Under the pieces are notes generated by a model. It made no database searches, was not told where the DNA came from, and saw nothing but the letters and a program-made list of their open reading frames with translations. This document shows, in pieces, positions 16,965 to 38,164 of a stretch of 64,000 bases of DNA (position 1 is the first letter of the stretch; each line of letters opens with the position of its first letter). This DNA comes from Pontibacter anaerobius. GTDB taxonomy: Bacteria; Bacteroidota; Bacteroidia; Cytophagales; Hymenobacteraceae. Position numbers and translations under genes: made by a program. Where the stretch lies: the NCBI RefSeq assembly GCF_026241195.1, contig NZ_JAPFQO010000008.1:124001-188000 (forward strand). Direction: 5' to 3'.

Positions 16965-17456
16965 ATGAAAAACTTTATTTTACCCCTACTCTTTATTTTG
17001 TTGGTAGTTGCTTCAGGCTGCCAGCGCGAAGCAACCGTTCAGGAGGTGATGGATACAGAGGAGCAGCGCAAGGAAGTTTACGCCACAATAATGGATAACC
17101 CAGAAATGCGACAGGAAATGATGCAGACCATGCGCGAACATCCTGAGGGAGGCATGATGATGGGTGGTGGTATGATGCGTAGAGGCAACATGATGGGAGA
17201 CACCACGATGATGATGAGCGACACCACCATGATGGGCGGTATGGGCCACATGAACCAGGCACAAATGCGTAATATGATGCAGCAGATGATGGACGCCTGC
17301 GCTCAGGACTCGGCCAATTGCGACATGATGTCGCAGATGATGATGGGCAACCGCCAGATGATGCAGCACATGATGCGGCAGATGCAGCAGCAAAACATGA
17401 TGAACAAGGAGTGCTATCAGCAGATGATGCAGAACATGAGTAGCATGAAGAAGTAA
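16965..17456 (+). CDS. Methionine-rich lipoprotein, probable Cu(I)/Ag(I)-binding
   Basis: A 163-residue protein. The signal peptide ends in the lipobox VVASGC. After a short acidic helix (residues 20-60) the chain is dominated by Met: 42 of 163 residues by my count, in MM and MMM clusters (GGMMMGGGMM, DTTMMMSDTTMMGGMGHM, NMMQQMMDAC), with Gln, Asn, His and three Cys after the lipid cysteine. Clustered thioether ligands are typical of periplasmic copper or silver binders; this is inference. The nearby oxidase with a Met/His-rich insert supports a copper role. The low-complexity DNA leaves long open frames on the other strand, which are not genes. Confidence 0.78.
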   Translation: MKNFILPLLFILLVVASGCQREATVQEVMDTEEQRKEVYATIMDNPEMRQEMMQTMREHPEGGMMMGGGMMRRGNMMGDTTMMMSDTTMMGGMGHMNQAQMRNMMQQMMDACAQDSANCDMMSQMMMGNRQMMQHMMRQMQQQNMMNKECYQQMMQNMSSMKK

Positions 17457-19368: not shown

Positions 19369-21852
19369 TCAGAACCTCACCGTCAAACCTCCACCTGCCC
19401 CAAAGCGGTTGTCGTAGCTGCCCATCAACGAAAAGGTTTTGGACACCAGGTATTCCAGTCCCACGTTCCAAGTTGTCTCGCTTCTGTAGTTGTCAACTTT
19501 GCCCGTGCCTTCCTCCGGCTCAAAATCGTTTACCCAACCAAAGTCTGCCTGGTACTCATACTCGCCAAACAAAAAGGTGCGCGGGAAAATAAGCACTTCC
19601 CGCCCAAGGCTGATCTGAGGGCGCAACTTGTTATCCATGCGCAGGTCCAGGTTGAACATATAGGGCGTGAGGTATCTGATTCCAGCAATGGCAGTCGTTT
19701 CGATCTCATCCATACTGTCCTCTTCCTCATTCTCCACGTTCACCCCGACGAAAACATTCAGGTAGTCATACAGGAACCTGCCGTAGGTAAACTCTGCCTC
19801 TAGGTTCTTGTTCCAGCCATACTCTGCCGACAAGGTAAACTGGTTGCGCAGGTTCGACAGCAACATCCTCGTCTCACCCATATGCGAAGCGGCATCCGCG
19901 GCTCCCCAGAAGAAGAAATGGTTGCTTTTGTTTGTAAGGATCCGGAGCGGGTACATTTTCAAACGTGGGTCACGGGGCGTATCGTAACTGAAAACACGGG
20001 CCATACCGGCATCCAGGTGGTATAAAATGTGGCAATGGAAAAACCAGTCGCCGTACTCGTTGGCATCAAACTCGATCACCACTTTCTGCATCGGGGCCAC
20101 ATTTACCGTGTGCTTCAGCGGCGAGTATTCTCCGTGCTCGTTTATCACCCGGAAAAAGTGTCCGTGCAGGTGCATGGGGTGGTGCATCATGGTCAGGTTG
20201 TTGAGCGTAATTCGGGCCACCTCCCCTTGTCTGATCTTGATCTTATCTGCTTCTTTAAGCGGAACACCATTCATGCTCCAGATGTAGCGCACCATGTTCC
20301 CAGTAAGGTTCAGGAGAATTTCCTGAACAGGTTTATCTTCTGCAAAGTCAGTTGGCTCGGGGGCTTTCAGGTAGTCATAGTTATACTCTGCAAACATATC
20401 CATACCGGGCATTCCCTCATGCTGCATCCCAATCCCTTTTCTGGCCTCTTTCTGGTTCATCTGCGTTTTACCGTGCATGCTGTGTTCCATTTTAGCATGA
20501 TCCATATCCATTGCAACGGTAGTGTCTTTTTGTGTTTTATGGTGCTCTGTTTTGGCGTGATCCATCTTAGAGTGGTCCATTTTAGAATGATCCATCATTT
20601 TAGCACCCGCCGTATCCTGCTTCATCTCCATCTCATGCTGATGCATTGGTTTCTGTGGCTCTTCAGGTTTGGGCTTTCTTTTCATACTATTTCCGTGGTC
20701 CATGTGCATGTCCTCTTCCATGTCCATTCCCCACTCCTTCATCATCTCATAAGGCTCTTCTTCGCTGGGGTTGAACTTGGTAGCCGGTGCACCCATCTTC
20801 ATATCCATAGCGGCCATCTGCTGCATCATGGCGATCTTGTCAGGTCGGGGCACGTCGGGGGCAGGTATAACAGCTCCCTGGCCAAGCAAGGTAGAAGTAT
20901 GGCCGGAGCCGTCCTGCACGGTGGCTTTCATCTCCAGCTTCCCGTTCTGCGGAATGGTCACTATAAAATCATACGTCTCGGCTACCGCGATAAAGGTTTT
21001 GCCTCGCTTTACAGGTACAACATCCGGACCATCGGCGGCTACCAGCAAGGGCGTGTCACCGCCAAAGGTTAGCCAGAACTGGCTGGAAGCCGCCGAGTTG
21101 ATGACACGCAGCCTGACCTTTTGCCCCGGTTTATACTCCGGGTACTCCCGCACAGGCTGCCCATTACTCAGAAAAGCCGGGTAGTAAATATCGGCGATGT
21201 CGGCACCTTCCATGCGCTGCTTCCAGAAGTTGAGCTGTGCACTCAAGGCTCCCCTGGCTATCACCCTGTTCAGCGGTACAGAAGTACCCTTTTGGATGTC
21301 GTAAATCTCCAGCCCCCGTTTCAGGGTCTTCAGCACGTTTGTAGGTTTTTCGTAGGTCCAGTCAGACAGCACGACCACCAGGTCTGAGTCATAGTCGAGC
21401 TTCTGCTCCCGGTCCTCGATCACAATAGATCCGTACACCCCCATCTGCTCCTGCAAACCAGTGTGAGAGTGGTACCAGTAGGTGCCGGTGTGTTTTAGCT
21501 CAAACTCATACGTAAAGGTAGTACCCGGCTCCACGGGTGGCGTGGTCAGGTAAGGAACGCCGTCAAAAAAGTTAGGCAGCAAGATGCCGTGCCAATGAAT
21601 AGAGGTCTCTTTATCCATTTTATTCGTCACATTGATCACCGCATAATCACCTAACTTAAACCGCAGGGTCGGACCCGGAATGGTACCGTTAATGGTCATG
21701 CCCATACTTTTCTTCCCGGCTATCTTCACCTGCTCCTTATCTATGGTCAGGTTGTAAACAACGGTATCGGGTTGTGCTGCAGCAACTTTGGGGGAGTATG
21801 AAAAAAGTGCGGAAAGAAATAGTATTAGTATGTAAGCGTATGGACTTTTCAC
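19369..21852 (-). CDS. Multicopper oxidase fused to a CopB-like outer-membrane barrel
   Basis: An 827-residue protein. After the signal peptide (cleaved near AAAQ, residue 27) come cupredoxin domains with all copper-binding motifs: HWHG (86-89), WYHSHTG (126-132), HHPMHLHGH (557-565) and HCHILYHLDAGM (606-617). These supply the type 1 and the trinuclear type 2/3 sites of a CopA/CueO-type oxidase. Residues about 340-490 are a Met/His-rich insert with repeated MDHSKMDH/MDHAKMEH units, likely a copper-loading region. From about residue 655 the chain changes to alternating beta-strands ending in LTVRF, resembling the CopB outer-membrane domain. The combination would hold a periplasmic copper oxidase at the outer membrane. 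CopA and CopB are usually separate proteins. Confidence 0.88.
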   Translation of the reverse strand: MKSPYAYILILFLSALFSYSPKVAAAQPDTVVYNLTIDKEQVKIAGKKSMGMTINGTIPGPTLRFKLGDYAVINVTNKMDKETSIHWHGILLPNFFDGVPYLTTPPVEPGTTFTYEFELKHTGTYWYHSHTGLQEQMGVYGSIVIEDREQKLDYDSDLVVVLSDWTYEKPTNVLKTLKRGLEIYDIQKGTSVPLNRVIARGALSAQLNFWKQRMEGADIADIYYPAFLSNGQPVREYPEYKPGQKVRLRVINSAASSQFWLTFGGDTPLLVAADGPDVVPVKRGKTFIAVAETYDFIVTIPQNGKLEMKATVQDGSGHTSTLLGQGAVIPAPDVPRPDKIAMMQQMAAMDMKMGAPATKFNPSEEEPYEMMKEWGMDMEEDMHMDHGNSMKRKPKPEEPQKPMHQHEMEMKQDTAGAKMMDHSKMDHSKMDHAKTEHHKTQKDTTVAMDMDHAKMEHSMHGKTQMNQKEARKGIGMQHEGMPGMDMFAEYNYDYLKAPEPTDFAEDKPVQEILLNLTGNMVRYIWSMNGVPLKEADKIKIRQGEVARITLNNLTMMHHPMHLHGHFFRVINEHGEYSPLKHTVNVAPMQKVVIEFDANEYGDWFFHCHILYHLDAGMARVFSYDTPRDPRLKMYPLRILTNKSNHFFFWGAADAASHMGETRMLLSNLRNQFTLSAEYGWNKNLEAEFTYGRFLYDYLNVFVGVNVENEEEDSMDEIETTAIAGIRYLTPYMFNLDLRMDNKLRPQISLGREVLIFPRTFLFGEYEYQADFGWVNDFEPEEGTGKVDNYRSETTWNVGLEYLVSKTFSLMGSYDNRFGAGGGLTVRF

Positions 21853-22136: not shown

Positions 22137-22308
22137 ATCCTTGAAGAGACTGCAGAGGTGTTAGACTTCAGAGTAAATAGTCATTGTTAATCAAGAAACT
22201 TGAGATTCGCACCAGAAGTTTTTGACGTCTGCAGCAAAGCACCCAGGTTGGTTCTCTCAACTCCTACACCCTTCCTCCCGTTTAGCTGACAGAAACAATG
22301 TTGAAATT

Positions 22309-23316
22309 ATGAACTACCTATACTTAGTTTTGGGAATACTGCTTTTTGTACTGACGGTGATGGACCTGATCAAGACCACCTTCTCCTCCAACGGTGGCGG
22401 TAAAATAACCAATGCGGTCTCCAAGGGTGTCTGGAAGTTGTTCTTCGCTGCTTCAGGAAAGAACGGAAAGTCGGGACTGCTCAGTTATGCAGGGCCAGCC
22501 GTGTTGATTTCCGTACTTCTGGTCTGGATCATCGGGCTTTGGAGCGGCCTGTTTCTGATGTTGCTCTCTGATAAAAACTCCATTGTGAACAGCAGCACCC
22601 TTGCCGTTACCACTCCATTGGAGAAATTATACTACGCCGGCTTCACGCTCTCTACATTGGGCGTTGGGGATTACAAAGCCACTACCGATGCCTGGCGCAT
22701 CATTACCAGTCTGGCGGCTTTTTCCGGGCTGGCCTTTATTACCGCGTCTATCACCTACTTTGTGCCTGTGCTCTCCGCGGTAGGCCTGCAAAGCAAGCTC
22801 AGCTTATACATCAGTGGCATGGGCAAAACACCACAGCAGCTATTGCTTAACAGCTGGAACGGGAAAGATTTTTCAAACTTTTTTGACAATGTTTCGGACC
22901 TGTGCCAGATGCTGATGCAACACACTATGAATCACCACTCCTACCCTGTTATTCACTACTTCCACAACAACCAGGTGAAGCTGGCCATTGCTCCTGCCAT
23001 CGTGCTGCTCGACGAAGCGTACCACCTGCTTAAACATACTACTGCAAAGGATGAGCTGAAGATGGAAATGTTGCAGACTTCGCTGGATACCTACCTTGAA
23101 ACAATGCAGGAGAGCTTTCTCAAAAACGCTACAGCCCATTCAAACGCCCCAACGCCAGACCTGGCGCAACTACAAAAGCAGGGGTTGCTCACAGAAAGTA
23201 CGGAACAGGTAAAGCGGGTTTTTCAGCAGGAGCAGAAAGACCGTCGGCAACTTCTAACGGCACTGCTGGAGAAAGACGGATGGTCGTGGGAACAGGTGTA
23301 TAGTTCTGGGGGTTAG
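22309..23316 (+). CDS. Two-TM ion channel (potassium-channel-like)
   Basis: A 335-residue protein, start placed at the ATG at 22309 because the first membrane helix begins there (MNYLYLVLGILLFVLTVMDLI). Another TM (VLISVLLVWIIGLWSGLFLML) is followed by a pore helix and the filter-like sequence STLGVGDYK, in place of the usual TVGYGD, then a further TM. The cytoplasmic C-terminus of about 180 residues is helical and has no RCK domain that I recognise. The filter GVGD, lacking Tyr, makes K+ selectivity uncertain. Isolated gene between two repeat elements. Confidence 0.78.
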   Translation: MNYLYLVLGILLFVLTVMDLIKTTFSSNGGGKITNAVSKGVWKLFFAASGKNGKSGLLSYAGPAVLISVLLVWIIGLWSGLFLMLLSDKNSIVNSSTLAVTTPLEKLYYAGFTLSTLGVGDYKATTDAWRIITSLAAFSGLAFITASITYFVPVLSAVGLQSKLSLYISGMGKTPQQLLLNSWNGKDFSNFFDNVSDLCQMLMQHTMNHHSYPVIHYFHNNQVKLAIAPAIVLLDEAYHLLKHTTAKDELKMEMLQTSLDTYLETMQESFLKNATAHSNAPTPDLAQLQKQGLLTESTEQVKRVFQQEQKDRRQLLTALLEKDGWSWEQVYSSGG

Positions 23317-23732: not shown

Positions 23733-23972
23733 ATGTGGCACATGGATGGTGACTGGCATTATTGGGGAATGCATATGTTTTGGTGGATATTCTGGGTTAT
23801 AGCCGCTTTGTTTTTTTTCGGTTATTTAATTAGCGTAGGCAAAAACCAAAGAACGTTTCAACAAGGAGGCAGGGAAACACCCCTTGACATACTTAAAAGA
23901 AGATATGCCTCCGGTGAAATAGACACAGCAGAGTATGAGCTAAGGAAAAGGGAACTGGAAAAAGGCAGTTAA
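23733..23972 (+). CDS. Small SHOCT-domain membrane protein
   Basis: A 79-residue protein. The N-terminus is rich in Trp, His and Met (MWHMDGDWHYWGMHMFWWIFW) and leads into one TM (VIAALFFFGYLISV). The C-terminus is a SHOCT domain (TPLDILKRRYASGEIDTAEYELRKREL), an oligomerisation motif common in short membrane proteins. The His/Met/Trp N-terminus suggests metal contact. Its 3' end overlaps the convergent FNT gene by four bases. Confidence 0.82.
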   Translation: MWHMDGDWHYWGMHMFWWIFWVIAALFFFGYLISVGKNQRTFQQGGRETPLDILKRRYASGEIDTAEYELRKRELEKGS

Positions 23973-24802
23973 GCCTGCGTGTGCGACTTTTCTTTATCAC
24001 CGGACTGTATCTGCGCGTGGTTGATGGCTGCTACCAGTACCACACCGCCAAGTATATTCCCGATCAGGGCAGGTAAAGTATAATTTAGCAGCACGTTCCC
24101 CCATGTTGTTTCACCCATAGCAGCAATCGTAAAGGTTTCCATGGAGCCGGCGATGACGTGGCTGAAGTGCCCGATGGCTACCACGTAGGTAATAAGTATG
24201 ATGATCCATACCCGAGCCGTACCGGCATAAGGCAACAGCCAGACCATCAGCGCAATAAGCCAGCCGGCAAACACGCCCCGCAGCAGCACCGTTCCGAAGT
24301 CTGGTTGCATCGCCTCATGGCCTAGCTTGGCAAAGGTTTCCAGTACATGCGGGTCAAAGGCCGACGTATGCGCTACAACTAAGGCGACAAATAAAGTACC
24401 CAACAGGTTGGCAAACAGCGCCACTCCCCAAAGGCGCATCACGTTCCGGAATTTCTCCAGCGTTTTATGGTGCAGGAGCGGTAAAATGGGTGTGAGTGTA
24501 TTCTCCGTGAACAGTTGCTGCTTGCCAAGTATAACGATAACAAAGCCGATGGTATAACCAAAGCTCGACACTAACACCGTCCATTCCGCATCTGGCAGGT
24601 AAGCCCCCAGCACACCTTCTACGATCAGGGACAAACTCATAGATAAGCCAGCCGCCAAGCCAGACCAGAAAAGGTTTGACGAGGGACGTTCCAGTTCCGA
24701 TTCCGCCTCTTTGTAGATGGCGTCGTGAATGGCCTTGGCAGAAGGAGAATTGCCGATCTCTTTTACCTGCTCATAGGCAGTATAGTCTTTTTCTTCCGCC
24801 AT
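23969..24802 (-). CDS. Formate/nitrite transporter family channel (YfdC-like)
   Basis: A 277-residue FNT-fold protein with six TM helices and a 45-residue cytoplasmic N-terminus (EKDYTAYEQVKEIGNSPSAKAIHD...). FNT-type segments visible include GLAAGLSMSLSLIVEGVLGAYL, GKQQLFTENTLTPILPLL (the loop equivalent to the omega loop) and IGHFSHVIAGSMETF with the pore-proximal His. Such pentameric channels pass small monovalent anions; the substrate is not predictable. It is the last gene of a five-gene operon running from 28332, 2 bases after the preceding stop. Confidence 0.88.
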   Translation of the reverse strand: MAEEKDYTAYEQVKEIGNSPSAKAIHDAIYKEAESELERPSSNLFWSGLAAGLSMSLSLIVEGVLGAYLPDAEWTVLVSSFGYTIGFVIVILGKQQLFTENTLTPILPLLHHKTLEKFRNVMRLWGVALFANLLGTLFVALVVAHTSAFDPHVLETFAKLGHEAMQPDFGTVLLRGVFAGWLIALMVWLLPYAGTARVWIIILITYVVAIGHFSHVIAGSMETFTIAAMGETTWGNVLLNYTLPALIGNILGGVVLVAAINHAQIQSGDKEKSHTQA

Positions 24803-24804
24803 AC

Positions 24805-25122
24805 TTACATGTCCCGGCTCTTGTGCTTCATCTTACCCATGCCTATCAGGGCGCCGATCAGCCCTCCTAATGCTATACCTGTAACGGCTCCCACAAAAAA
24901 ACTCACGGCAGTACCCGAAGTAGCATACTGCCCCAGGTCGCGTATGGGCCAGGCACCGGAAGAAACCATGTAGCCCACATAGCCAAGTATAACTCCTAAA
25001 ACGATAGCCCAAATGATGGCCATTTTCATGATGGCAGGATGGTACACCGCCTGCCCCTCCGGGTCATAGTTGGTGTAGCCTACAATTAAGTCTGCGTCTT
25101 TTTTATCGGTATGGTTGTTCAT
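24805..25122 (-). CDS. Glycine-rich two-TM protein of the FNT/DUF4396 operon
   Basis: A 105-residue protein with TM1 (MAIIWAIVLGVILGYVGYMV) and a glycine-zipper-like TM2 (FFVGAVTGIALGGLIGALIGM), with charged ends (N-terminal DKKDAD, C-terminal KMKHKSRDM). Family not recognised. Its ATG overlaps the stop of the preceding lipoprotein gene (ATGA), which implies translational coupling. Confidence 0.75.
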   Translation of the reverse strand: MNNHTDKKDADLIVGYTNYDPEGQAVYHPAIMKMAIIWAIVLGVILGYVGYMVSSGAWPIRDLGQYATSGTAVSFFVGAVTGIALGGLIGALIGMGKMKHKSRDM

Positions 25123-26357
25123 TTTTTCTGTAGTGTGTCTGCTTCTGAAAGCGGTTTAGCTGCCTTTGGATTCTTGAACGGCGACAACAGGAAATCCACT
25201 TCCCGCTGCGTAGCCTCTGATACGGTGCCTGTGTCGCCGATGATCCAGGCGTAGTTCAGAATGGTTTCCTGCGGCCCTGTCGGGAAAGGCTTCACCATGG
25301 TCAGGTATTTATTTACGGCCTGCGGCACGCTGTCCTGCGCCACCAGCAGTATAGGACCATGTTTGCCCATGTGCCCCAGCACAGCCGCCGGAATCATGCC
25401 CAGCATGTTATCGGCGTTGCCGATGATGAAGTTGTGGCCTGCCTGCGCAATGCCCCAGCCCAGGGCTCGCTGCTCCCAGTTCCACCACCAGCCATAGTTG
25501 CGGCCATAGTCTTTGTAGCCAGCATTCACGGTGTTCGAAGCGTACACGTTTTCGCCAAAGATTCTCCTTACCAAACCGTAGCGCCCCAGCTCCTTGGCAA
25601 CCTTATTCGATATCACGTCCGGGCCGCCGGTCAGGTAAATGTAAGAACCGTGGTCGCCGGAGCGCCTTTCCAGTATGCGTTTGGTTGCCTCCGGTATAGA
25701 GTCTTTGTACACCCAGGCGAAGCCCTTGCCCATGTGCGCGTTCCAGCCCATGGCCCCGATGCCATGCTTCAGCCCATCCGGGTGGTCAAGTACGGAGATG
25801 ATCACTTCATCGGGGTGGTCAGACTTCAGGGCAGCTTGCCAGCGGTCCAGTACCTCGGCTAACTGCACCGGGTTGTCGGCATAAAAAGACCTAACCTTGT
25901 AGCCCAGGATTTCCTTTACCTTGTTCACTTCTGCCTCCGGCACGTTCACGGCGTATACATCTATCCGTTTGTCGTTCAGCACACCGTCCGGTTTCAGTCG
26001 CTTCATCTCGCGCAAGGTGGCTTCGGATACATGGCCATCTTTGGTCAGGTACATCATGGGCGCGTTCACGGGCATGTGCGTAATGCGGTGCATAGCCGTA
26101 AAGGCAATGATCTCGTCCTGCGGAACAAGTATAATAGCCCCCACCGCGTTGTCTTCGCGGGTAGCCGGGTAAACTGTCTGGGTTAAAAGTATGGCCTGCT
26201 CTTCAGGCGATTTGCCAGGCAACCTTACCGTGTAGGCTGTAAAGCTGGCCTCGTTCTGCAAAGGCAGGCTACCGGCACCAGCCGGACCTTCGGTTTTGCC
26301 ACATGAACTGAACACAGTAAGTATAGCAAGCGTGTATATATAGCGTAATCCAATCAT
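25119..26357 (-). CDS. Lipoprotein with cell-wall-binding-repeat-2-like domains
   Basis: A 412-residue lipoprotein. The ATG at 26357 overlaps the upstream stop (ATGA) and begins a signal sequence with lipobox VFSSC. An in-frame upstream extension of 50 codons lies inside the preceding gene and is rejected. The mature part resembles cell wall binding repeat 2: alternating segments of the pattern hhhh-NADNMLGMIPAAVLG-GPILLV-DSVP-hhIIGDTGTVSEAT, with a second set near IYLTGGPDVISNKVAKELG. In Gram-positives and archaea these repeats bind wall polymers. In a Gram-negative lipoprotein the ligand is unknown. The similarity is judged by eye. Confidence 0.68.
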   Translation of the reverse strand: MIGLRYIYTLAILTVFSSCGKTEGPAGAGSLPLQNEASFTAYTVRLPGKSPEEQAILLTQTVYPATREDNAVGAIILVPQDEIIAFTAMHRITHMPVNAPMMYLTKDGHVSEATLREMKRLKPDGVLNDKRIDVYAVNVPEAEVNKVKEILGYKVRSFYADNPVQLAEVLDRWQAALKSDHPDEVIISVLDHPDGLKHGIGAMGWNAHMGKGFAWVYKDSIPEATKRILERRSGDHGSYIYLTGGPDVISNKVAKELGRYGLVRRIFGENVYASNTVNAGYKDYGRNYGWWWNWEQRALGWGIAQAGHNFIIGNADNMLGMIPAAVLGHMGKHGPILLVAQDSVPQAVNKYLTMVKPFPTGPQETILNYAWIIGDTGTVSEATQREVDFLLSPFKNPKAAKPLSEADTLQKK

Positions 26358-27979
26358 ACGTTTCCGGGTTTTAAGTGAGAACGGATCATGAGCCAGTTCA
26401 GCGGCCATGCCACCAGAAAACCGGCAAAAGAAGCCAGCCACATTACCCCGAACCAAAGTATGTCGTCTTCCTTCGGCATCATCGGGATGTGGTACATCAT
26501 CGTCCACCAGGCGGTTGTCATCATGCCTAAACTCACGGCGGCCATACTTAATGCGGTAGTTTTCAAAGCCATCATTGCCAGCTTTTTCTTTGGCATGTCC
26601 ATCATCATTTCTTTCATCGGGTACTGCACCATCGGCACTACGATCAGCACCGTCAGCACGTACATGGCAATCATCATGATCGGCATACCGGCCCCGAGCC
26701 AGAAGAAAGGCCCTTCAATCCACTCCGGGAAGAAGATCGGGAAACCGAACCATACGAACAGGAAGCCGACCGCGATCATGGTAGGCGCTCCGTAGCCAAA
26801 GCCCATGGCCGTAGCGGCGGCGCTTTGTATGTTCTGCGGACGAAGCCAATGCCACATGCCCTTTTCATCTTTGTAAGCCGGGCGGCGGTAAGCGTTCAGG
26901 TAAAGTATAGGACCAAGTACAGGAAGCACCAGCGAGGTCATGGACCAGGCAATTTTGATAGGCATGTGCACCATGTGCAAGGTATAGGTGCTGTGTATCA
27001 TCACGAAAATAGCTGAAGCGATACCCAGCACAATGAGCATGATGGCCAAGGCCTCCATATAGCCCATCGCAACCGGACCCATACTTGCATACTCAGCTTT
27101 CTCAATGGAGAAATCCAGGCGGCTCTGGGCAGCATAACTCACATCATTGCTCACCAGCCAGAAATGTTTAAAAGGTCCTTCGGAAGGCGATACCATCCAG
27201 TCGGTGCGCTGGCTCCAGACGTAGCGGTCCAACGCAGCTGGCAATCCGCCTTCGTCTCCGGCATACAGCAGCGTGGCGTTGTTGCTCACGGCATACGGCA
27301 AAGCGGCCAGTCCTTCCAGAGTGTGTTTGGGTGTGGTAACTACATAATGAAAGTAACCGGTGCGGCGGTTACGTACGCGGCCCCAGCCAAACTCGTGCTC
27401 CTCATCGCGCAACTCTGCAATTTTTATGGCATGGTCCGTAAGATCTTTGCCCACTATCCGTTCGGCTCCCTCAAAATTATCTTCTATGTCAGAAGGTATA
27501 AACTCATCCGGGCCGATGATAAAAGCTTTCAGGTTACGGTACTGCGCTGCGTTCTGCCCGGTCAATTGTCCGTTCTCAGCAAACAGCACCGGGGAGCCAT
27601 AGTAAAAGGCATAGTAGATAGCGGGCAGGGCCCATTGTAAGGCCTCTTTGCCACCGCCTGGCAGCACCAGCACGTGGCGCGGGTTATCGGCTACTTTTAT
27701 ACTTTGCGTTACAAACTCCTGCCAGTTCTTTTCGGATGGCGCCATGTCGGCCACTTTTGCCTCCTCGTAGGGGATGGCTGTTTTCAGGTATTCGTGCAGG
27801 TCAGTGGCATTCTGGGCCACTACACGGGTCACGTTTTTGGTGTGGGCGATCATGCGCCCTTCCATGGCCCCTTTCTCAGCCCAGGGAGCAACTTCCAGGT
27901 CCTCCTTCAGCACATTCAGAAGGCCAAACCCAAGTATGAGCACCACCAAAAAAGTCAGGACCGGATATGTCCACTTCAT
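26354..27979 (-). CDS. Membrane protein: periplasmic wall-binding-like domain plus DUF4396
   Basis: A 541-residue protein. An N-terminal TM anchor (YPVLTFLVVLILGFGLLNVL) is followed by about 270 periplasmic residues. Their repeating pattern (HVLVLPGGGKEALQWALPAIYYAFYYGSPVLFA, AFIIGPDEFIP) resembles the wall-binding-like domains of the next gene. From about residue 300, six TM helices follow, ending in MALKTTALSMAAVSLGMMTTAWW and the terminal FAGFLVAWPLNWLMIRSHLKPG typical of DUF4396. DUF4396 has no established function. The membrane part is rich in Met (MKEMMMDMPKKKLAMM). Second gene of the five-gene operon, 11 bases after the first. Confidence 0.72.
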   Translation of the reverse strand: MKWTYPVLTFLVVLILGFGLLNVLKEDLEVAPWAEKGAMEGRMIAHTKNVTRVVAQNATDLHEYLKTAIPYEEAKVADMAPSEKNWQEFVTQSIKVADNPRHVLVLPGGGKEALQWALPAIYYAFYYGSPVLFAENGQLTGQNAAQYRNLKAFIIGPDEFIPSDIEDNFEGAERIVGKDLTDHAIKIAELRDEEHEFGWGRVRNRRTGYFHYVVTTPKHTLEGLAALPYAVSNNATLLYAGDEGGLPAALDRYVWSQRTDWMVSPSEGPFKHFWLVSNDVSYAAQSRLDFSIEKAEYASMGPVAMGYMEALAIMLIVLGIASAIFVMIHSTYTLHMVHMPIKIAWSMTSLVLPVLGPILYLNAYRRPAYKDEKGMWHWLRPQNIQSAAATAMGFGYGAPTMIAVGFLFVWFGFPIFFPEWIEGPFFWLGAGMPIMMIAMYVLTVLIVVPMVQYPMKEMMMDMPKKKLAMMALKTTALSMAAVSLGMMTTAWWTMMYHIPMMPKEDDILWFGVMWLASFAGFLVAWPLNWLMIRSHLKPGNV

Positions 27980-27990
27980 AGTTTATCTTT

Positions 27991-28332
27991 TTAGTTCAAC
28001 ACAAAAATGAGCAGCCAGATCAGGCCGCCCATACCTATTGCCTGGTACACAATGGCCAGCCACTTCTGCATATGCTGGTGCTTTTTCTTCTGCGAAAAGA
28101 GCATAAAACCAACCAGGGCAGCCACCGCAAAAATCACGATGGTGGCAATCTGCTTTTCAGGTTTATCGGTGATGATGGCAAACAGGATCAGGAGCAACAG
28201 CCCCAGAGCAAAGCTCCCGGCATGCAGCATCAGCAGCTTTTTCGGAGCCATCTTCCCCTGCAGCACATGCGACAACAGCAAGGCCCCCACCAGCATGGCA
28301 ACAAAGAAGAATATTGTAGCGGCAACAGCCAT
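27991..28332 (-). CDS. Small four-TM membrane protein, first gene of the operon
   Basis: A 113-residue protein that is almost entirely membrane: four hydrophobic segments (FFFVAMLVGALLLSHVL, LHAGSFALGLLLLILFAII, IATIVIFAVAALVGFMLF, WLAIVYQAIGMGGLIWLLIF) separated by short basic loops (QKKKHQHMQK). Family not recognised. The gene opens the operon leading to the DUF4396 protein, lipoprotein, Gly-rich protein and FNT channel. REP-like repeats lie just upstream. Confidence 0.75.
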   Translation of the reverse strand: MAVAATIFFFVAMLVGALLLSHVLQGKMAPKKLLMLHAGSFALGLLLLILFAIITDKPEKQIATIVIFAVAALVGFMLFSQKKKHQHMQKWLAIVYQAIGMGGLIWLLIFVLN

Positions 28333-28386
28333 AGTTTATAGGTTAGGTTTATACTTGTTTAATAATTTGTCAGTCTATCTACTGCT

Positions 28387-28640
28387 CTTCCGGACATCCT
28401 TGTCCGGAAGCTGTCTGAAGGGGACTTCCTTGTCCCCGTTTCATGCAAAGCTTAATCCGCAATGCTTGTCATCCCCCTTCCACCTTCAAAGGGGGACTTT
28501 TCTCTACTACCTAAGCTTTTAACTTTTATGCTTCGTCGGAGCATTGAGCTACAGGTATAAAGTTCAGTTGCTACAGGTATAAAGTTCAGTTCAAGAATAC
28601 TCGTGCTGACTTTCCCCCTTTGAAGGGGGTAGGGGGATGA
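28387..28640. repeat. REP-like hairpins and a 22-base tandem duplication
   Basis: Two successive hairpins share a TCCTTGTC-type core (CTTCCGGACA/TGTCCGGAAG, 28387-28410, and GGGGAC/GTCCCC, 28420-28437). C-rich and G-rich hairpins CCCCCTT..AAGGGGG lie at about 28473-28495 and 28613-28627. Between them a 22-base unit starting CTACAGGTATAAAGTTCAGT occurs twice in tandem (28549-28570, 28571-28592). There is no coding potential in the 325-base gap. Confidence 0.65.
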
Positions 28641-28657
28641 TTTACAGCTACGAGCTA

Positions 28658-30280
28658 TTACTTCCCCTTACTCACCTTCCAGAGCACACCAGTAAAAGGC
28701 ATGGCGTTCATGCCTGTGTCATCAAACTCTACCACACCAAAATCAACAATGTATAATGAGCCATCTTTGCCCCACTCCATTTGCAGGGGGCGTTCCAGGC
28801 CGCCGGTGTTTTTTACTGAAGACGGAAGGCTGTTCTTGTTATAGATAAAATCTTTTGCCTCGCCGGTTTTCAGGTTTACCTGCTGCACCTTAAAGCCGGG
28901 CCAGTTATACTTTACGCCGGGTGGTGCGTTTTCTTCCTCAGGCATTCCTTTGGGTAGTTTCGGGTGATATTCTTTGCCTTTGAACTCCGGCACGATGGTA
29001 CCGAACTCCGCCACCAGTATGTCCTGCTCCGGCACGCCGAAAGCGCTGTTACCGAACACCATGCCCTGGGCCGCGCTATGCACCGGCAGTAACGCGATGG
29101 GCTGGCGCGGTTTGTCTTTTCCCTTCAGCAGCTTGCGGTGCGTTTCCTCAGTCAGTACAAAATCCCATATCTTATCTTTGCCACTAAAGCGTTCGTCTGT
29201 AATAGGTATGCCGCTGAAGAAATCTGGCCAGCCGTACCATTCGCCCTGCACCACTTCATACACCGGCTCGTAGTCGAAGTATAAACCGCGCGGCGGCATG
29301 GGGTTGGCGCTGTTCATGGTAGTGATGAGTTTGCCATCCGGTGAAAAACGGTAGCCGAAGCTGGAGCGTAATCCCCAGGCAATGCGCTTGATATTTTTGC
29401 CATCCAGGTCGCAGCTGAAGAAGGCGCCGTTGCAGATCTCCTGCCCTTTTATCACCTGCCCTGCGGTTGTCTTTTCACCGAGCTTTACGTACACGCCCGT
29501 CTCCAAAGAGTCCGCGTCCACAATGGTCATTTTATCGGTGGGCACCCAGAAGTTCTTGCCTGTCAGGATAATGTCTTCCCCGGGAATTTCCTTAGCCTCA
29601 GGTTTATTAAAATCGTTGATCACCTCTACCCAATGTTTCTCCTGTACGCCTGTATTGCCTTGTGTGGACAGGAAGAAGTACATTTTGTTGTCTTTGAAAA
29701 TCGGCTTGGCATTCAGGAATTCGCCCCAGGATGGCAGGCCGTTGATGATGGTCTCAAACTCCCCCGACTCGAGGTCGTAGGTGGAATAGCGGCTGCGGTG
29801 GGAGATGTACAGTTTACCGTTGTAGTAGGTTACGCCGGTCAGCGGCGGTATCAGGCCCTCTTCCATGTCTTCGGAAGAATCCTTGCTTTTGATGATGTTC
29901 ATGGGCACTACCTTGTCGTAGAGCACTTTGGTAGTACCGTCGGGCAACAGCTGAAGTATACGTGCCTCCGGTGCCCGATCCGGTTTGGTACCGTACGTAT
30001 GGCCGCCTGCCTCGGCTATGTATGTGTTGCCCTTGTCGTCGAAGGTTACGTCCACGGGGTAGCTCAGGCCTTCGGCAACGGCTTCTATCTTCATACCTGC
30101 CGGCAAGGCAATGGCCGACGGGTCTATTTTTCTCCGGCTTTCCTGGTGTACCTCCTGCACCGCCTCCGCTTCCTCATCACCGCGTGTCTCTTCTTTTCCC
30201 GAACAAGAGAACAGCAGCACAGCAGGCAGCGCCAAAACGTAAGTCAGATACTTTAAACCGGAAACCTCATTTTTTTTCAT
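28658..30280 (-). CDS. Beta-propeller lipoprotein, PQQ-type dehydrogenase-like
   Basis: A 540-residue lipoprotein (lipobox LLFSC, about residue 26) with an NHL/six-bladed beta-propeller pattern: LSYPVDVTFDDKGNTYIAEAGG opening, LTGVTYYNGKLYISHRSR, GLRSSFGYRFSPDGKLI, and a closing LERPLQMEWGKDGSLYIVDFG blade. It resembles sorbosone- or glucose-dehydrogenase-like propellers. Whether it binds PQQ or is catalytic is not clear, since I do not see the DNHNAG-type catalytic His of the neighbouring protein. It is transcribed in the same direction as that second propeller gene, 153 bases downstream. Confidence 0.78.
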   Translation of the reverse strand: MKKNEVSGLKYLTYVLALPAVLLFSCSGKEETRGDEEAEAVQEVHQESRRKIDPSAIALPAGMKIEAVAEGLSYPVDVTFDDKGNTYIAEAGGHTYGTKPDRAPEARILQLLPDGTTKVLYDKVVPMNIIKSKDSSEDMEEGLIPPLTGVTYYNGKLYISHRSRYSTYDLESGEFETIINGLPSWGEFLNAKPIFKDNKMYFFLSTQGNTGVQEKHWVEVINDFNKPEAKEIPGEDIILTGKNFWVPTDKMTIVDADSLETGVYVKLGEKTTAGQVIKGQEICNGAFFSCDLDGKNIKRIAWGLRSSFGYRFSPDGKLITTMNSANPMPPRGLYFDYEPVYEVVQGEWYGWPDFFSGIPITDERFSGKDKIWDFVLTEETHRKLLKGKDKPRQPIALLPVHSAAQGMVFGNSAFGVPEQDILVAEFGTIVPEFKGKEYHPKLPKGMPEEENAPPGVKYNWPGFKVQQVNLKTGEAKDFIYNKNSLPSSVKNTGGLERPLQMEWGKDGSLYIVDFGVVEFDDTGMNAMPFTGVLWKVSKGK

Positions 30281-30433: not shown

Positions 30434-31789
30434 TTACTCAATACGGTATACTTTACCCGTTTTTCCGGTTGGCCCTTCTTTCTCATTTCCAAGCAGATAC
30501 ACCTCTCCGCTATTGTCCTGACCGAAGCTTAACAGGTAGTGCCCGAAAGCATTATCTGGCCTGTTCCTGAAGTGCAGCTTGCGGTGCTGCCACGGCCCGT
30601 TTTCACCGGATACTTGTGCCGCGAAAATGGCACCGTCCGGTTTGCCATGGTGCTGTGTCCAGACGCCGAACAGGTAGTTTCCATCAAGCCCTTCATACTT
30701 CTGCCCCCTGTACACGTAACCGCCCACTCCCACGATGCCCAGGCCTTCCTGCGGGAAACTCATGCTGTTCTTAAACTCTATCACGGGGTCTGTGAACTTC
30801 GTGCCCAGACTATCCTCGTCAGGGCAGTCCGGTAAGGGGTTCTTGTTGTCGGCGGCGTTGAAGCAGCTGGTTCCTTCCTTTACATTCCAGCCATAGTTGG
30901 CGCCTTTCTTGATCACGTTCATCTCTTCATACAGTACCTGCCCCGCATCACCGGCTATGATCATTCCTGTTTCCTGATCAATGGAAAAACGGTATGGATT
31001 ACGAAGGCCGTAAGCGTAAATTTCTTTCATGCCGTTGTTGCCATCGGCAAACGGATTATCGGAAGGAATGCCGTACGAAGCACCGCTGTTCACGTCGATG
31101 CGCAGGATACTGCCCAGCAGGTTCTGCTTCACGTCCTGCCCGTTGCCACCGTCGTTCTCCTTATACCAGTCACTCACATGGCCGGTGCCGATATCGTTTT
31201 TGTTGCCGCCGTCCCCCAGGCTGATGTACAGGTAACCATCAGGACCAAACATTAATGTACCAGCATTATGGTTATCCTGCGGCTGGTCCACGTACATGAT
31301 CACCTTTTCGGAGTTCGGATCTGCCTTTTCGCGGTTGCTACCTGAAGCTGTATACTGGGCGATCACGCTGGTGTGGTTGAAGTCGTTAGGAGCTCCTTTT
31401 CGCAGCGGTGCGCTATAGTAGACAAAGAACCTGCCGTTGCTTTTAAACTCCGGGTGGAAAGCCAACCCCAGCAGTCCGCGCTCCTCATGTTCAGGCTTTA
31501 ACTTTACGATCTTACTTTTCAGATCAAGAAAAGGCTCTGGCTGTAGTTTACCGTCCTTCACCACACGCACCTCCCCTACCTGGTCAAGTATAAACAGCCT
31601 GTCGTCATTGGACGGCTGGGTCAGGAAAACAGGTGAGACAAGGTCGGAGGCGATCAGTTGCAGCCCGACAGAATCCACAGAAGCCTGTTCAGTGGTAGCT
31701 GTTTCGGTTGTTTCTTCGGTGGTAGGCGTTGATGTGCAGGAATAGAAAAGCAGCACACCTGCCATGGCATAGAGTAAGTTCTTTTTCAT
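30434..31789 (-). CDS. PQQ-dependent sugar dehydrogenase-like lipoprotein (GSDH family)
   Basis: A 451-residue lipoprotein (lipobox LFYSC, then a Thr/Glu-rich linker). The six-bladed propeller has GSDH motifs: LVSPVFLTQPSNDDRLFILDQVGEV, ERGLLGLAFHPEF, QPQDNHNAGTLMFGPDGYLYISLGDGG with the likely catalytic His, LLGSILRIDV, EIYAYGLRNPYRFSID and ANYGWNVKEG. The family oxidises aldoses with PQQ and Ca2+ in the periplasm. Electron acceptor and substrate are unknown. It is a paralogue in architecture, but not a close copy, of the propeller encoded downstream. Confidence 0.87.
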   Translation of the reverse strand: MKKNLLYAMAGVLLFYSCTSTPTTEETTETATTEQASVDSVGLQLIASDLVSPVFLTQPSNDDRLFILDQVGEVRVVKDGKLQPEPFLDLKSKIVKLKPEHEERGLLGLAFHPEFKSNGRFFVYYSAPLRKGAPNDFNHTSVIAQYTASGSNREKADPNSEKVIMYVDQPQDNHNAGTLMFGPDGYLYISLGDGGNKNDIGTGHVSDWYKENDGGNGQDVKQNLLGSILRIDVNSGASYGIPSDNPFADGNNGMKEIYAYGLRNPYRFSIDQETGMIIAGDAGQVLYEEMNVIKKGANYGWNVKEGTSCFNAADNKNPLPDCPDEDSLGTKFTDPVIEFKNSMSFPQEGLGIVGVGGYVYRGQKYEGLDGNYLFGVWTQHHGKPDGAIFAAQVSGENGPWQHRKLHFRNRPDNAFGHYLLSFGQDNSGEVYLLGNEKEGPTGKTGKVYRIE

Positions 31790-36046: not shown

Positions 36047-38164
36047 ATGAAGGAACACGACCATAAGCATAATCTGCACCAGCAACATAGCCCCAAAGCA
36101 AATGCAGATGCAAAAATTGACCGCACGGAGGAAAAGTTGCAGGAAAAAACACTGCACGGCCACGAGCACGCCATGCACAAGGATACTACCTGGCACCCAC
36201 CGCACGGAGAACACGGGCACGACCATCACCGCATGATGATCGAAGATTTTAAGAAGCGTTTTTGGGTGTCGCTGGTGCTGGCCGTGCCTGTGATCATACT
36301 TAGCCCGATGGTGCAGCATATCCTGGGCTTCTCGCTGGACATACCCTACAGCATGTATATTGCCTTTGCACTCTCCTCGATCATTTACTTTTATGGTGGC
36401 TGGCCTTTCTTAACGGGTTTGGCAGATGAGGTAAAGAAAGGGGCTCCCGGCATGATGACCCTGATCGGGGTGGCTATAACAGTGGCCTATGTTTACAGCA
36501 CCGCAACCGTGTTTGGCCTGGAGGGCATGGATTTTTTCTGGGAACTGGCCACCCTGATCGTGATCATGCTGCTGGGCCATTGGATTGAAATGCGCTCGGT
36601 ACTCGGTGCCTCAAAAGCTTTGGAGTTGCTGGTAAGTATGATGCCCGCAGAAGCCATGCTGATAAGGGATGGGGAAACAGTAAGAGTCCGCATTGAGGAT
36701 CTTAAAAGAAACGACCTTATACTGGTGAAGCCAGGCGAGAAAGTACCCGCCGACGGAGTGGTTGAAGACGGAGAAAGTCACCTGAACGAAAGTATGCTAA
36801 CCGGTGAGAGCAAGCCGGTAAAGAAAATGCAAGGCAACAATGTGATAGGCGGATCCATTAACGGTAACGGCTCGCTGCGGGTACGGGTAGAGCATACCGG
36901 AAAAGAGAGTTACCTAAACAAGGTGATTAATCTGGTGCAGGAGGCGCAGAAAACAAAGTCAGAGACACAGCGCCTGGCCGACCGTGCTGCCAAATGGCTT
37001 ACCTACATTGCCCTTACTGCAGGCTTCGGAACGTTAACCGTATGGTTAATTTTAGGCCAGGAGTTCTCCTTTGCCCTGGAGCGCATGGTTACCGTGATGG
37101 TTATTTCCTGCCCCCACGCCTTAGGCTTGGCCGTGCCGCTGGTGGTGGCAATTTCAACGGCTGTCTCAGCAAACAACGGGTTGCTCATCCGTAACCGCAC
37201 CGCCTTCGAGAACTCACGAAAAATCACCACCGTTATTTTCGATAAAACAGGCACGCTTACCCGCGGTTCCCACGAAATCGCGTCAGTTGAAACTTTTAAT
37301 GGTGTTATGGAGAAACGGGAGATGTTGCGCCTGGCCTCCGGTATAGAGCAGAACTCTGAGCATTTTATCTCACAGGCGATACTTAGGAAAGCGAAAGAAG
37401 AAGGTGTAATCGTACCCCCTTCCCAAACCTTTAACTACCTGCCCGGGAAAGGACTGGAAGGTACGGTAGAAGGCAAAGACGTTAAGGTGGTGGGGCCAAA
37501 CTACATCAAAGAATTTGAGATTGAGGTGCCGGCCAGTACTGCAGAGGAAGGCGTGGAAACTGTGGTTTATGTGCTTCTTAACAAAGAGCCTGTGGGCTAC
37601 ATCACCATGCGCGACCAGATACGGGAAGAATCTGCCGAAGCGATAAGGGTGCTGAAGGAGAACGGCATCAAAAACCTGCTGCTTACCGGCGATAATGAAC
37701 GTGTTGCCAAAAGCGTGAGCGACAAGCTGGGGATGGACGGCTACCTGGCCAATGTGCTGCCGCACCAAAAGCAGGAGAAGGTAAAGGAACTCCAGGAGAA
37801 AGGGGAATTCATAGCCATGACCGGCGATGGTGTGAACGATGCCCCTGCCCTTGCACAGGCCGATGTAGGCATTGCCGTTGGTTCAGGCACAGACGTAGCC
37901 GCCGAGACAGCCGATATTATACTTGTGAATAGCAATCCGCAGGACATTGCATCGCTAATATTGTTTGGGAAAGCCACTTACCGAAAGATGATACAGAACC
38001 TGATCTGGGCCACAGGCTATAACGTGATCGCGTTGCCACTTGCCGCCGGTGTGCTCTATAGCCAAGGGATTATGGTTTCGCCAGCCGTGGGAGCCGCTTT
38101 GATGAGTTTAAGTACGGTGATCGTGGCCATAAACGCACAGCTGCTGCGGAAAGAAATTAAGTAG
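36047..38164 (+). CDS. copB: Copper-exporting P1B-type ATPase, CopB type
   Basis: A 705-residue ATPase. The N-terminal 65 residues are His-rich (HDHKHNLHQQH, HGHEHAMH, HGEHGHDHH) instead of carrying CxxC metal-binding domains, as usual for CopB. Eight TM helices follow. The membrane metal motif is CPH (C355-H357) rather than CPC, the P1B-3 signature. Actuator LTGES, phosphorylation site DKTGTLT (Asp399) and hinge GDGVNDAPALAQADVGIAVG are intact. The nucleotide-binding HP dipeptide is HF (SEHFISQAI, His439-Phe440). Probable export of Cu or Ag to the periplasm, where the oxidase and Met-rich lipoprotein would act. Confidence 0.93.
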   Translation: MKEHDHKHNLHQQHSPKANADAKIDRTEEKLQEKTLHGHEHAMHKDTTWHPPHGEHGHDHHRMMIEDFKKRFWVSLVLAVPVIILSPMVQHILGFSLDIPYSMYIAFALSSIIYFYGGWPFLTGLADEVKKGAPGMMTLIGVAITVAYVYSTATVFGLEGMDFFWELATLIVIMLLGHWIEMRSVLGASKALELLVSMMPAEAMLIRDGETVRVRIEDLKRNDLILVKPGEKVPADGVVEDGESHLNESMLTGESKPVKKMQGNNVIGGSINGNGSLRVRVEHTGKESYLNKVINLVQEAQKTKSETQRLADRAAKWLTYIALTAGFGTLTVWLILGQEFSFALERMVTVMVISCPHALGLAVPLVVAISTAVSANNGLLIRNRTAFENSRKITTVIFDKTGTLTRGSHEIASVETFNGVMEKREMLRLASGIEQNSEHFISQAILRKAKEEGVIVPPSQTFNYLPGKGLEGTVEGKDVKVVGPNYIKEFEIEVPASTAEEGVETVVYVLLNKEPVGYITMRDQIREESAEAIRVLKENGIKNLLLTGDNERVAKSVSDKLGMDGYLANVLPHQKQEKVKELQEKGEFIAMTGDGVNDAPALAQADVGIAVGSGTDVAAETADIILVNSNPQDIASLILFGKATYRKMIQNLIWATGYNVIALPLAAGVLYSQGIMVSPAVGAALMSLSTVIVAINAQLLRKEIK

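Follow-up and report, generated by a model that had tools for sequence, protein, structure and literature searches.

The CWB2 (cell wall binding repeat 2) proteins of Clostridioides difficile, among them the SlpA high-mass subunit, Cwp6 and Cwp8, anchor to PSII, an anionic polymer of the wall. According to the portion of PMC8881574 drawn on here, the core bundle of their pseudo-threefold tile is made of helices alpha3, alpha7 and alpha11, one helix per CWB2. The domain DUF4396 has been named, in an excerpt of PMC7760498, as flanking a metal-resistance cluster. Bacterial copper-resistance sets are in turn made up of CopA/CopB ATPases, CopC/CopD, the PcoA/CopA oxidase and Csp proteins. The locus described in this report touches on all of these. 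It lies in a 64,000-nucleotide stretch of the Pontibacter anaerobius genome (contig NZ_JAPFQO010000008.1, positions 124,001 to 188,000; hereafter the window) and consists at its core of three minus-strand genes encoding a CWB2-like domain joined to DUF4396 (P4), a lipoprotein-like CWB2 protein (P3) and a glycine-zipper hairpin (GZ). The cassette recurs in Bacteroidota and haloarchaea, and its genetic linkage to copper genes is well supported. An involvement with copper is very likely, and the reading favoured here, which is based on sequence, is that P4, P3 and GZ probably make up an extracytoplasmic copper-handling complex, serving tolerance and built on a repurposed CWB2 fold.

Five minus-strand open reading frames (ORFs) occupy positions 23969-28332 of the window. 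In the order of transcription they encode TM4 (27991-28332; 113 amino acids, with four transmembrane (TM) helices), P4 (26354-27979; 541 amino acids), P3 (25119-26357; 412 amino acids), GZ (24805-25122; 105 amino acids, a two-TM hairpin) and an FNT-family channel (23969-24802; 277 amino acids). TM4 and P4 are separated by an 11-base gap, P4-P3 and P3-GZ overlap by four bases each, and GZ and FNT are 2 bases apart. An earlier note on this DNA, which proposed five genes coupled by ATGA overlaps and gaps of 2 to 11 bases, had these coordinates and junctions right. For comparison, 21 P4 loci were gathered, 10 from Bacteroidota and 11 from haloarchaea, among which haloarchaeal L016 and L033 are nearly identical and Bacteroidota L015 and L023 lie on one plasmid. 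The P4-P3 overlap, four bases reading (A/G)TGA, is found in all 21; because it recurs in these loci of two domains of life, the linkage of the two genes is not due to chance. P3 and GZ also overlap by four bases in 11/11 haloarchaeal and 4/9 Bacteroidota loci, with a gap of a few bases in the other five; only nine Bacteroidota loci enter the GZ counts because the contig of L032 ends within P3. The gene order P4-P3-GZ, whose conservation the earlier note had put forward as a check, is kept in all 20 loci free of a contig-end cut (9 Bacteroidota, 11 haloarchaeal). GZ itself matches the Pfam glycine-zipper family weakly (15.2 bits; cut-off 28.9), and its Bacteroidota and haloarchaeal families are related (hhalign 96.4%, P 1.1e-9, against 0.1-0.4% for two unrelated-family controls). 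The conserved core is therefore three genes: P4, P3 and GZ.

Outside the core, membership differs between the two lineages. TM4 is present in 10/10 Bacteroidota and 0/11 haloarchaeal loci. A match between TM4 and the SPW protein that lies 5' of P4 in haloarchaea was considered and rejected (hhalign 0.2%). A counterpart of the minus-strand gene upstream in the window (28658-30280) likewise stands 5' of TM4 in all ten Bacteroidota loci and in none of the haloarchaeal ones, and the limit of 28332 that had been set for the cluster was thus drawn too tightly. The spacing from this upstream gene to TM4 is 1-20 bases in 7/10 Bacteroidota loci and 325-555 bases in the window, L015 and L026/L022; in the window it is 325 bases (28333-28657), a gap in which short direct and inverted repeats can be seen by eye. 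The product is lipoprotein-like and probably a beta-propeller, weakly of the ScyD/ScyE kind (NCBIfam ScyE_fam 37.1 bits, cut-off 80; Pfam DUF7133 23.8 bits, cut-off 27). In Bacteroidota, TM4 and the upstream gene belong to the unit too. The FNT gene, whose product matches PF01226 (177.2 bits; cut-off 34.6) and scores too low for either the FocA or the fnt equivalog, was rejected as a core member and is an optional passenger of the operon. Thus, of the membership first proposed, GZ stands in all uncut loci and TM4 in Bacteroidota, while FNT drops out. The idea that the set is a transport complex with an FNT anion channel draws on the position of FNT 2 bases after GZ, in the window and in L015; since the gene is present in only 3/10 Bacteroidota and 0/11 haloarchaeal loci, such a complex is very improbable.

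By family score alone, the assignment of P3 is marginal: it reaches 23.4 bits against CW_binding_2 (PF04122), just under the Pfam cut-off of 24.9, and 71/77 P3 relatives match the family at E 0.01. The fold match settles the call. A model was made with AlphaFold2 on a 77-row alignment, for which 76 of the 80 loci from the scan served (left out were L032, truncated at a contig end, and L034, L038 and L078, for which an ORF on the opposite strand had been picked), and it shows three beta-alpha repeats with a predicted local distance difference test score (pLDDT) of 84.9 and a predicted template modelling score (pTM) of 0.83. Searched with Foldseek, the model gives 11 PDB matches at E <=0.001, all of them the C. 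difficile CWB2 proteins SlpA high-mass subunit, Cwp6 and Cwp8 (E 1.7e-14 to 1.3e-10), followed by a next match at E 3e-3. Comparison by VIA-align returns Z 31-34.5 for eight CWB2 entries, with Cwp6 at 34.5, against 6.9 for the next, non-CWB2 entry, and the P3 profile, searched against the PDB, recovers eight CWB2 sequences (E 2.9e-12 to 1.5e-10). As modelled, P3 is a three-repeat CWB2 fold forming a pseudo-threefold tile.

In P4, an N-terminal TM helix precedes a CWB2-like region at about residues 50-280 and DUF4396 at residues 409-537. The DUF4396 domain (PF14342) scores 47.9 bits against a cut-off of 27, and 72.3 bits in haloarchaeal P4. For CW_binding_2, P4 scores 22.1 bits, under the cut-off of 24.9, while haloarchaeal P4 of L016 scores 36.7 bits; the P4 profile reaches Cwp8 at E 1.7e-6 and Cwp6 at 0.0014, over one or two repeats. 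The proposal of two CWB2-like products, of which P3 is a lipoprotein and P4 a fusion with DUF4396, is therefore borne out, and the earlier note's check on related folds came out in its favour through the model matches of P3.

The most distinctive feature of P3 is a set of conserved residues. In the alignment, H94, H208, H329, H333, W205 and W301 are present in 77/77 rows and H308 in 75/77, although for H94 this holds by construction in the 76 relatives, as the scan pattern itself required H94 and H or M at position 95. Among loci found independently of the pattern (9 haloarchaeal, 4 Bacilli plasmid), 12/13 have all four histidines. SlpH and Cwp6 have no histidine at the positions of H94, H208, H329 and H333 in the alignments displayed. 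In the model, H94, H208 and H329 sit where helices 82-92, 195-209 and 318-329 end, these being the second helix of each repeat. Counted from alpha1 in HID, alpha3, alpha7 and alpha11 of the C. difficile core bundle are second helices as well, so the helix-end histidines of P3 should lie near the pseudo-threefold axis. On this pattern P3 probably carries a metal site. In addition, the tails of Bacilli P3 proteins have a His/Met density of 0.086 and 0.108 against 0.046 for the core, about twofold higher.

Since P3 has a complete three-repeat tile (Z 34.5), and since the C. difficile proteins with this tile are anchors to PSII in the cited part of PMC8881574, P3 and P4 could instead bind an envelope polymer in the same manner, and would then lie in copper islands only as genes that harden the envelope in general. 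The conserved histidines are, however, not seen in the aligned solved anchors; the second CWB2-like domain is joined in one protein with a membrane domain, the Met-rich DUF4396; a lipid or membrane anchor is already present in P3; and copper neighbours recur in three lineages. Surface-polymer or S-layer attachment is accordingly judged improbable, and wall or envelope binding as the function, which the earlier note had suggested, is unsupported given the copper genes around the cassette and the histidines new to P3.

Methionine is the second residue of interest. The segment of P4 from 460 to 510 (51 residues) has 11 Met, and Met 401, 432, 455, 479, 486, 487, 495, 500 and 501 are invariant in 20/20 P4 sequences. 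For DUF4396 proteins on plasmids, 22 of 94 records were looked at, with near copies among them (L151/L161; three from Hymenobacter). The first 10 neighbourhoods were partly chosen by annotation or match position and so lean towards copper, whereas the later 12 were chosen regardless of copper annotation. Copper context was taken to mean copper genes within 5 kb, judged by eye from annotations, and L146, with plastocyanin only, was excluded. In the segment equivalent to 460-510, the copper-context proteins have 3, 3, 4, 7, 8, 8, 8, 11, 11, 11, 11, 11 and 11 Met and the plasmid proteins without copper genes nearby have 2, 2, 2, 2, 3, 3, 4 and 7 (Mann-Whitney P 0.0007, on rows that are not independent); the segment is Met-rich in 10/13 of the former and 1/8 of the latter. 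The later batch of 12 divides into six in copper context (3, 3, 7, 8, 8, 11) and six not (2, 2, 2, 3, 3, 4). In four Pseudomonadota plasmid proteins, a single chain combines DUF4396 (138-143 bits) with multicopper oxidase domains, and the 51-residue segment has 11 Met in each (L142, 4201-6093; L143, 4878-6845; L144, 4878-6836; L145, 4878-6749). The plasmids come from Roseateles, Variovorax, Mesorhizobium and Afipia, and CueR, CopC-CopD or CusA genes adjoin the fusions. One Arthrobacter plasmid has consecutive genes for a copper ATPase, an F510_1955 protein and DUF4396. An earlier idea that the DUF4396 domain of P4 had lost a universal HCxSGC motif was dropped, as the motif marks only some DUF4396 proteins.

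The surroundings of the cassette point in the same direction. In the window, a plus-strand copper-translocating P-type ATPase (36047-38164; TIGR01511, 600.6 bits against a cut-off of 397) bears the motif CPHALGLAVP, presumably of the CopB type, and a minus-strand multicopper oxidase with a Met/His-rich insert (19369-21852; PF07732, 151 bits) has copper_res_A as its best NCBIfam match (388 bits, under the cut-off of 479). Relatives of this oxidase occur in 4/10 Bacteroidota loci, plus L027. Within the DNA covered, the cassette is accompanied in 6/10 Bacteroidota loci (the window, L023, L024/L027, L028, L029 and L030) by at least one of three markers: multicopper oxidase, Csp-like protein and copper ATPase. 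In the same island as the cassette, a small ORF at 16965-17456 encodes a lipoprotein-like, extremely Met-rich protein with no Pfam match at E 0.001. In L029, a 175-amino-acid ORF (3623-4150) is 80% identical to part of the window copper ATPase and is apparently a fragment. Among haloarchaea, 8/11 loci contain matches to the window ATPase, six of these at 48-52% identity, and all ten haloarchaeal ATPases read, in full or in part, have copper-type motifs. The Csp-like protein, present in 6/11 haloarchaeal and 2/10 Bacteroidota loci, scores 34.7 bits for the Csp family against a cut-off of 100; its haloarchaeal form is named in RefSeq as a four-helix bundle copper-binding protein.

A third lineage is provided by Bacilli, in which P3 occurs alone: P4 was not found beside P3 in these loci (L018-L105), 72 of which form the comparison set once L066, which duplicates L019, is set aside. 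In 26/72 there is a heavy-metal ATPase no more than about 6 kb from P3, and 24 of the 26 have motifs that are classed here as copper-type. As background, 24 genomes with Bacilli loci hold 88 such ATPases in 122.8 Mb, or about 0.012 per 16-kb span and about 0.8 per 72 spans. The excess is large, yet with hand-picked genomes and Bacilli loci related to one another it does not amount to 26 independent events. Histidine-kinase (HK) clusters occur in 52/72 loci and F510_1955 beta-propeller clusters in 21/72. The F510_1955 and ATPase assignments were checked, while the labels CsoR, DUF302, CcdA-like, CtaC-like and HK were each given by eye from one sequence. F510_1955 proteins are named glycosylhydrolase, yet here they stand among copper genes; the literature, so far as sampled, gives their function as unknown. 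Could the metal be silver, zinc or cadmium instead? The Bacilli loci L020 and L021 have ATPase motifs that are not of copper type, and a CDF transporter is found in the window and in L026. Since 24 of the 26 Bacilli motifs and every haloarchaeal one read are of copper type, a substrate other than copper is quite improbable.

The locations of the proteins are indicated by their signals. Window P3 begins with a lipobox-like signal, a similar motif is present in 58/72 Bacilli P3 proteins, and a twin-arginine signal was seen by eye at the start of 10/10 haloarchaeal P3 proteins listed. For the CWB2 part of P4, the density of N-glycosylation sequons in haloarchaea (47 in 3200 residues) suggests a position on the outside, given that cytosolic enzymes have 5 in 2183 residues and ATPases 13 in 4776; however, P3, which is exported, has only 12 in 3759, and this low count weakens the argument.

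From these elements, a mechanism may be sketched. The histidines at the second-helix ends of P3 (H94, H208 and H329/H333) would probably create a metal site at the core bundle, on the pseudo-threefold axis. At the outer face of the membrane, that site could catch copper which has been released or excluded there. P4, through its own CWB2-like domain, may hold P3 at the membrane; that the two proteins form a complex is likely. P4 could then pass copper along its Met-rich DUF4396 helix or keep copper on it, and GZ may help P3 and P4 to assemble. Detoxification would be completed by the copper ATPase, the oxidase and, elsewhere, the Csp-like proteins.

Several observations weigh against this reading. 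The structure model of P4 is poor (pLDDT 59.9) and insufficient for a fold search. The DUF4396 loop charges, under the positive-inside rule, would place the CWB2 part inside or call for another crossing, and with that part outside, K/R-rich loops and the C-terminus would be outside too. Three Met-poor plasmid DUF4396 proteins are also near copper genes. The copper-context group is marked by a Met-rich segment in the penultimate helix and by an HCxAGD motif, of which P4 has the former and lacks the latter. For P3, the conservation of H94 was in part built into the scan, and the exception among the 13 pattern-independent loci, Bacilli L021, has a truncated P3 without the whole histidine set. The neighbouring ATPases of L020 and L021 are not of copper type by motif, and four loci (L015, L026, L031 and L032, the last being short) show no copper marker of the three kinds within the DNA covered.

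The chief rival to copper tolerance is copper supply, in which the complex would feed extracytoplasmic cuproenzymes in the manner of CopC/CopD-type importers and metallochaperones. Potential recipients are indeed nearby in some loci: multicopper oxidases lie near 11/72 Bacilli loci, a CtaC-like gene (oxidase subunit II, labelled by a look at the sequence) near 5/72, and standalone DUF4396 adjoins cytochrome c oxidase genes in Martelella and is near them in Rhizobium. In Salinimicrobium xinjiangense (L029), moreover, the operon continues with genes for a TMEM220 protein and for a receptor of the TonB-dependent kind. This pair lies 3' of the cassette in two Salinimicrobium loci (L029, 11633-14391; L028, 13766-16526), and in L028 a 482-amino-acid protein and a cytochrome c stand between it and the cassette. 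The cassette is found, however, alongside export ATPases and storage proteins of the Csp-like kind, both of which belong to detoxification, and it is patchy in distribution with copies on plasmids. Supply is thus considered unlikely, and export or sequestration of copper would be the more probable direction of flow.

Two further genes are frequent neighbours of the cassette. A glucose/sorbosone-dehydrogenase-like gene (window 30434-31789, minus strand; PF07995, 129 bits) is present in 8/10 Bacteroidota loci. A gene for a two-TM ion-channel-like protein (window 22222-23316, plus strand; PF07885, 35 bits) is present in both domains of life, with 6/10 Bacteroidota and 6/11 haloarchaeal loci. In L016 (20987-21988), L033 and L034 (5211-6212) the latter adjoins a CPH-type ATPase.

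P4 is rare. Among 395 Bacteroidota genomes, P4 finds a convincing match in its own genome alone, the second match being 29% identical over 92 residues (E 1e-3). A family-level scan of 200 genomes yields 6 full-length P4 copies in 5 genomes, its own included, and 4 more genomes with a weak DUF4396 match only, while 292 haloarchaeal genomes yield 9 full-length copies in 8 genomes and 10 more with weak matches only. Used as the query against 84,980 species genomes, the P3 alignment gave 116 relatives, the best 80 of which comprise 7 from Bacteroidota (the genera Botryobacter, Pontibacter, Salinimicrobium and Persicitalea), 2 from haloarchaea and the rest from Bacillota. Several cassette copies are plasmid-borne; the 204-kb plasmid of Pontibacter actiniarum (NZ_CP021236.1 / G462:C2) holds two diverged copies, L015 and L023, with differing flanks. 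A tree of 43 P3 proteins resolves Bacteroidota, haloarchaea and Bacilli as one group each and joins the first two (100/100), in line with exchange of the cassette between Bacteroidota and haloarchaea, in either direction. A broader and more tentative proposal is a copper system shared by archaea and bacteria, in which the CWB2 tile would act as a metalloprotein with a pseudo-threefold His site, docked on a CWB2-DUF4396 protein that offers a Met-rich conduit.

No description of the cassette was found in the open-licence literature searched, including searches on DUF4396, CWB2 with copper, F510_1955, and the SPW repeat with copper, and in the part of a haloarchaeal copper paper (PMC9240420) covered by the terms searched, cell wall proteins are not mentioned. 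The remark in the earlier note that no system of this composition is described therefore appears sound within that literature; the note did not extend to the copper island, the gene 5' of TM4, the Met-rich character of DUF4396 or the relatives in archaea and Bacilli. If the proposed role in copper tolerance is true, DUF4396 would gain a first function, the CWB2 fold would gain one other than anchoring, and a copper-tolerance module that crossed between haloarchaea and Bacteroidota would gain a name. Mutation of the four histidines and the methionine ladder, all within two small proteins, would also put the proposal to a precise test.

The described systems closest to the cassette each match it in part. 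P3, like the C. difficile CWB2 proteins SlpA high-mass subunit, Cwp6 and Cwp8, has three (beta-alpha)4 repeats, at 16-18% identity; it differs from them in being a lipoprotein or Tat-exported, in its histidines at the second-helix ends, in its copper neighbours and in having, in P4, a putative membrane partner with the same fold. P4 resembles the Met-rich DUF4396-multicopper oxidase fusions of Pseudomonadota plasmids in its 11 Met over 51 residues and its copper neighbourhoods, but its DUF4396 is joined to a CWB2-like domain and lacks the HCxAGD motif. The P3-only Bacilli loci share with the cassette a P3 orthologue with the same His set and copper ATPases; in contrast to the cassette, no P4 was found alongside, and F510_1955 and kinase clusters are frequent. 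Finally, several members of the bacterial copper-resistance sets are neighbours of the cassette, although neither CopC nor CopD was found in Pfam and NCBIfam scans of 20 window proteins, and the core proteins P4, P3 and GZ are none of the proteins of which those sets are composed.

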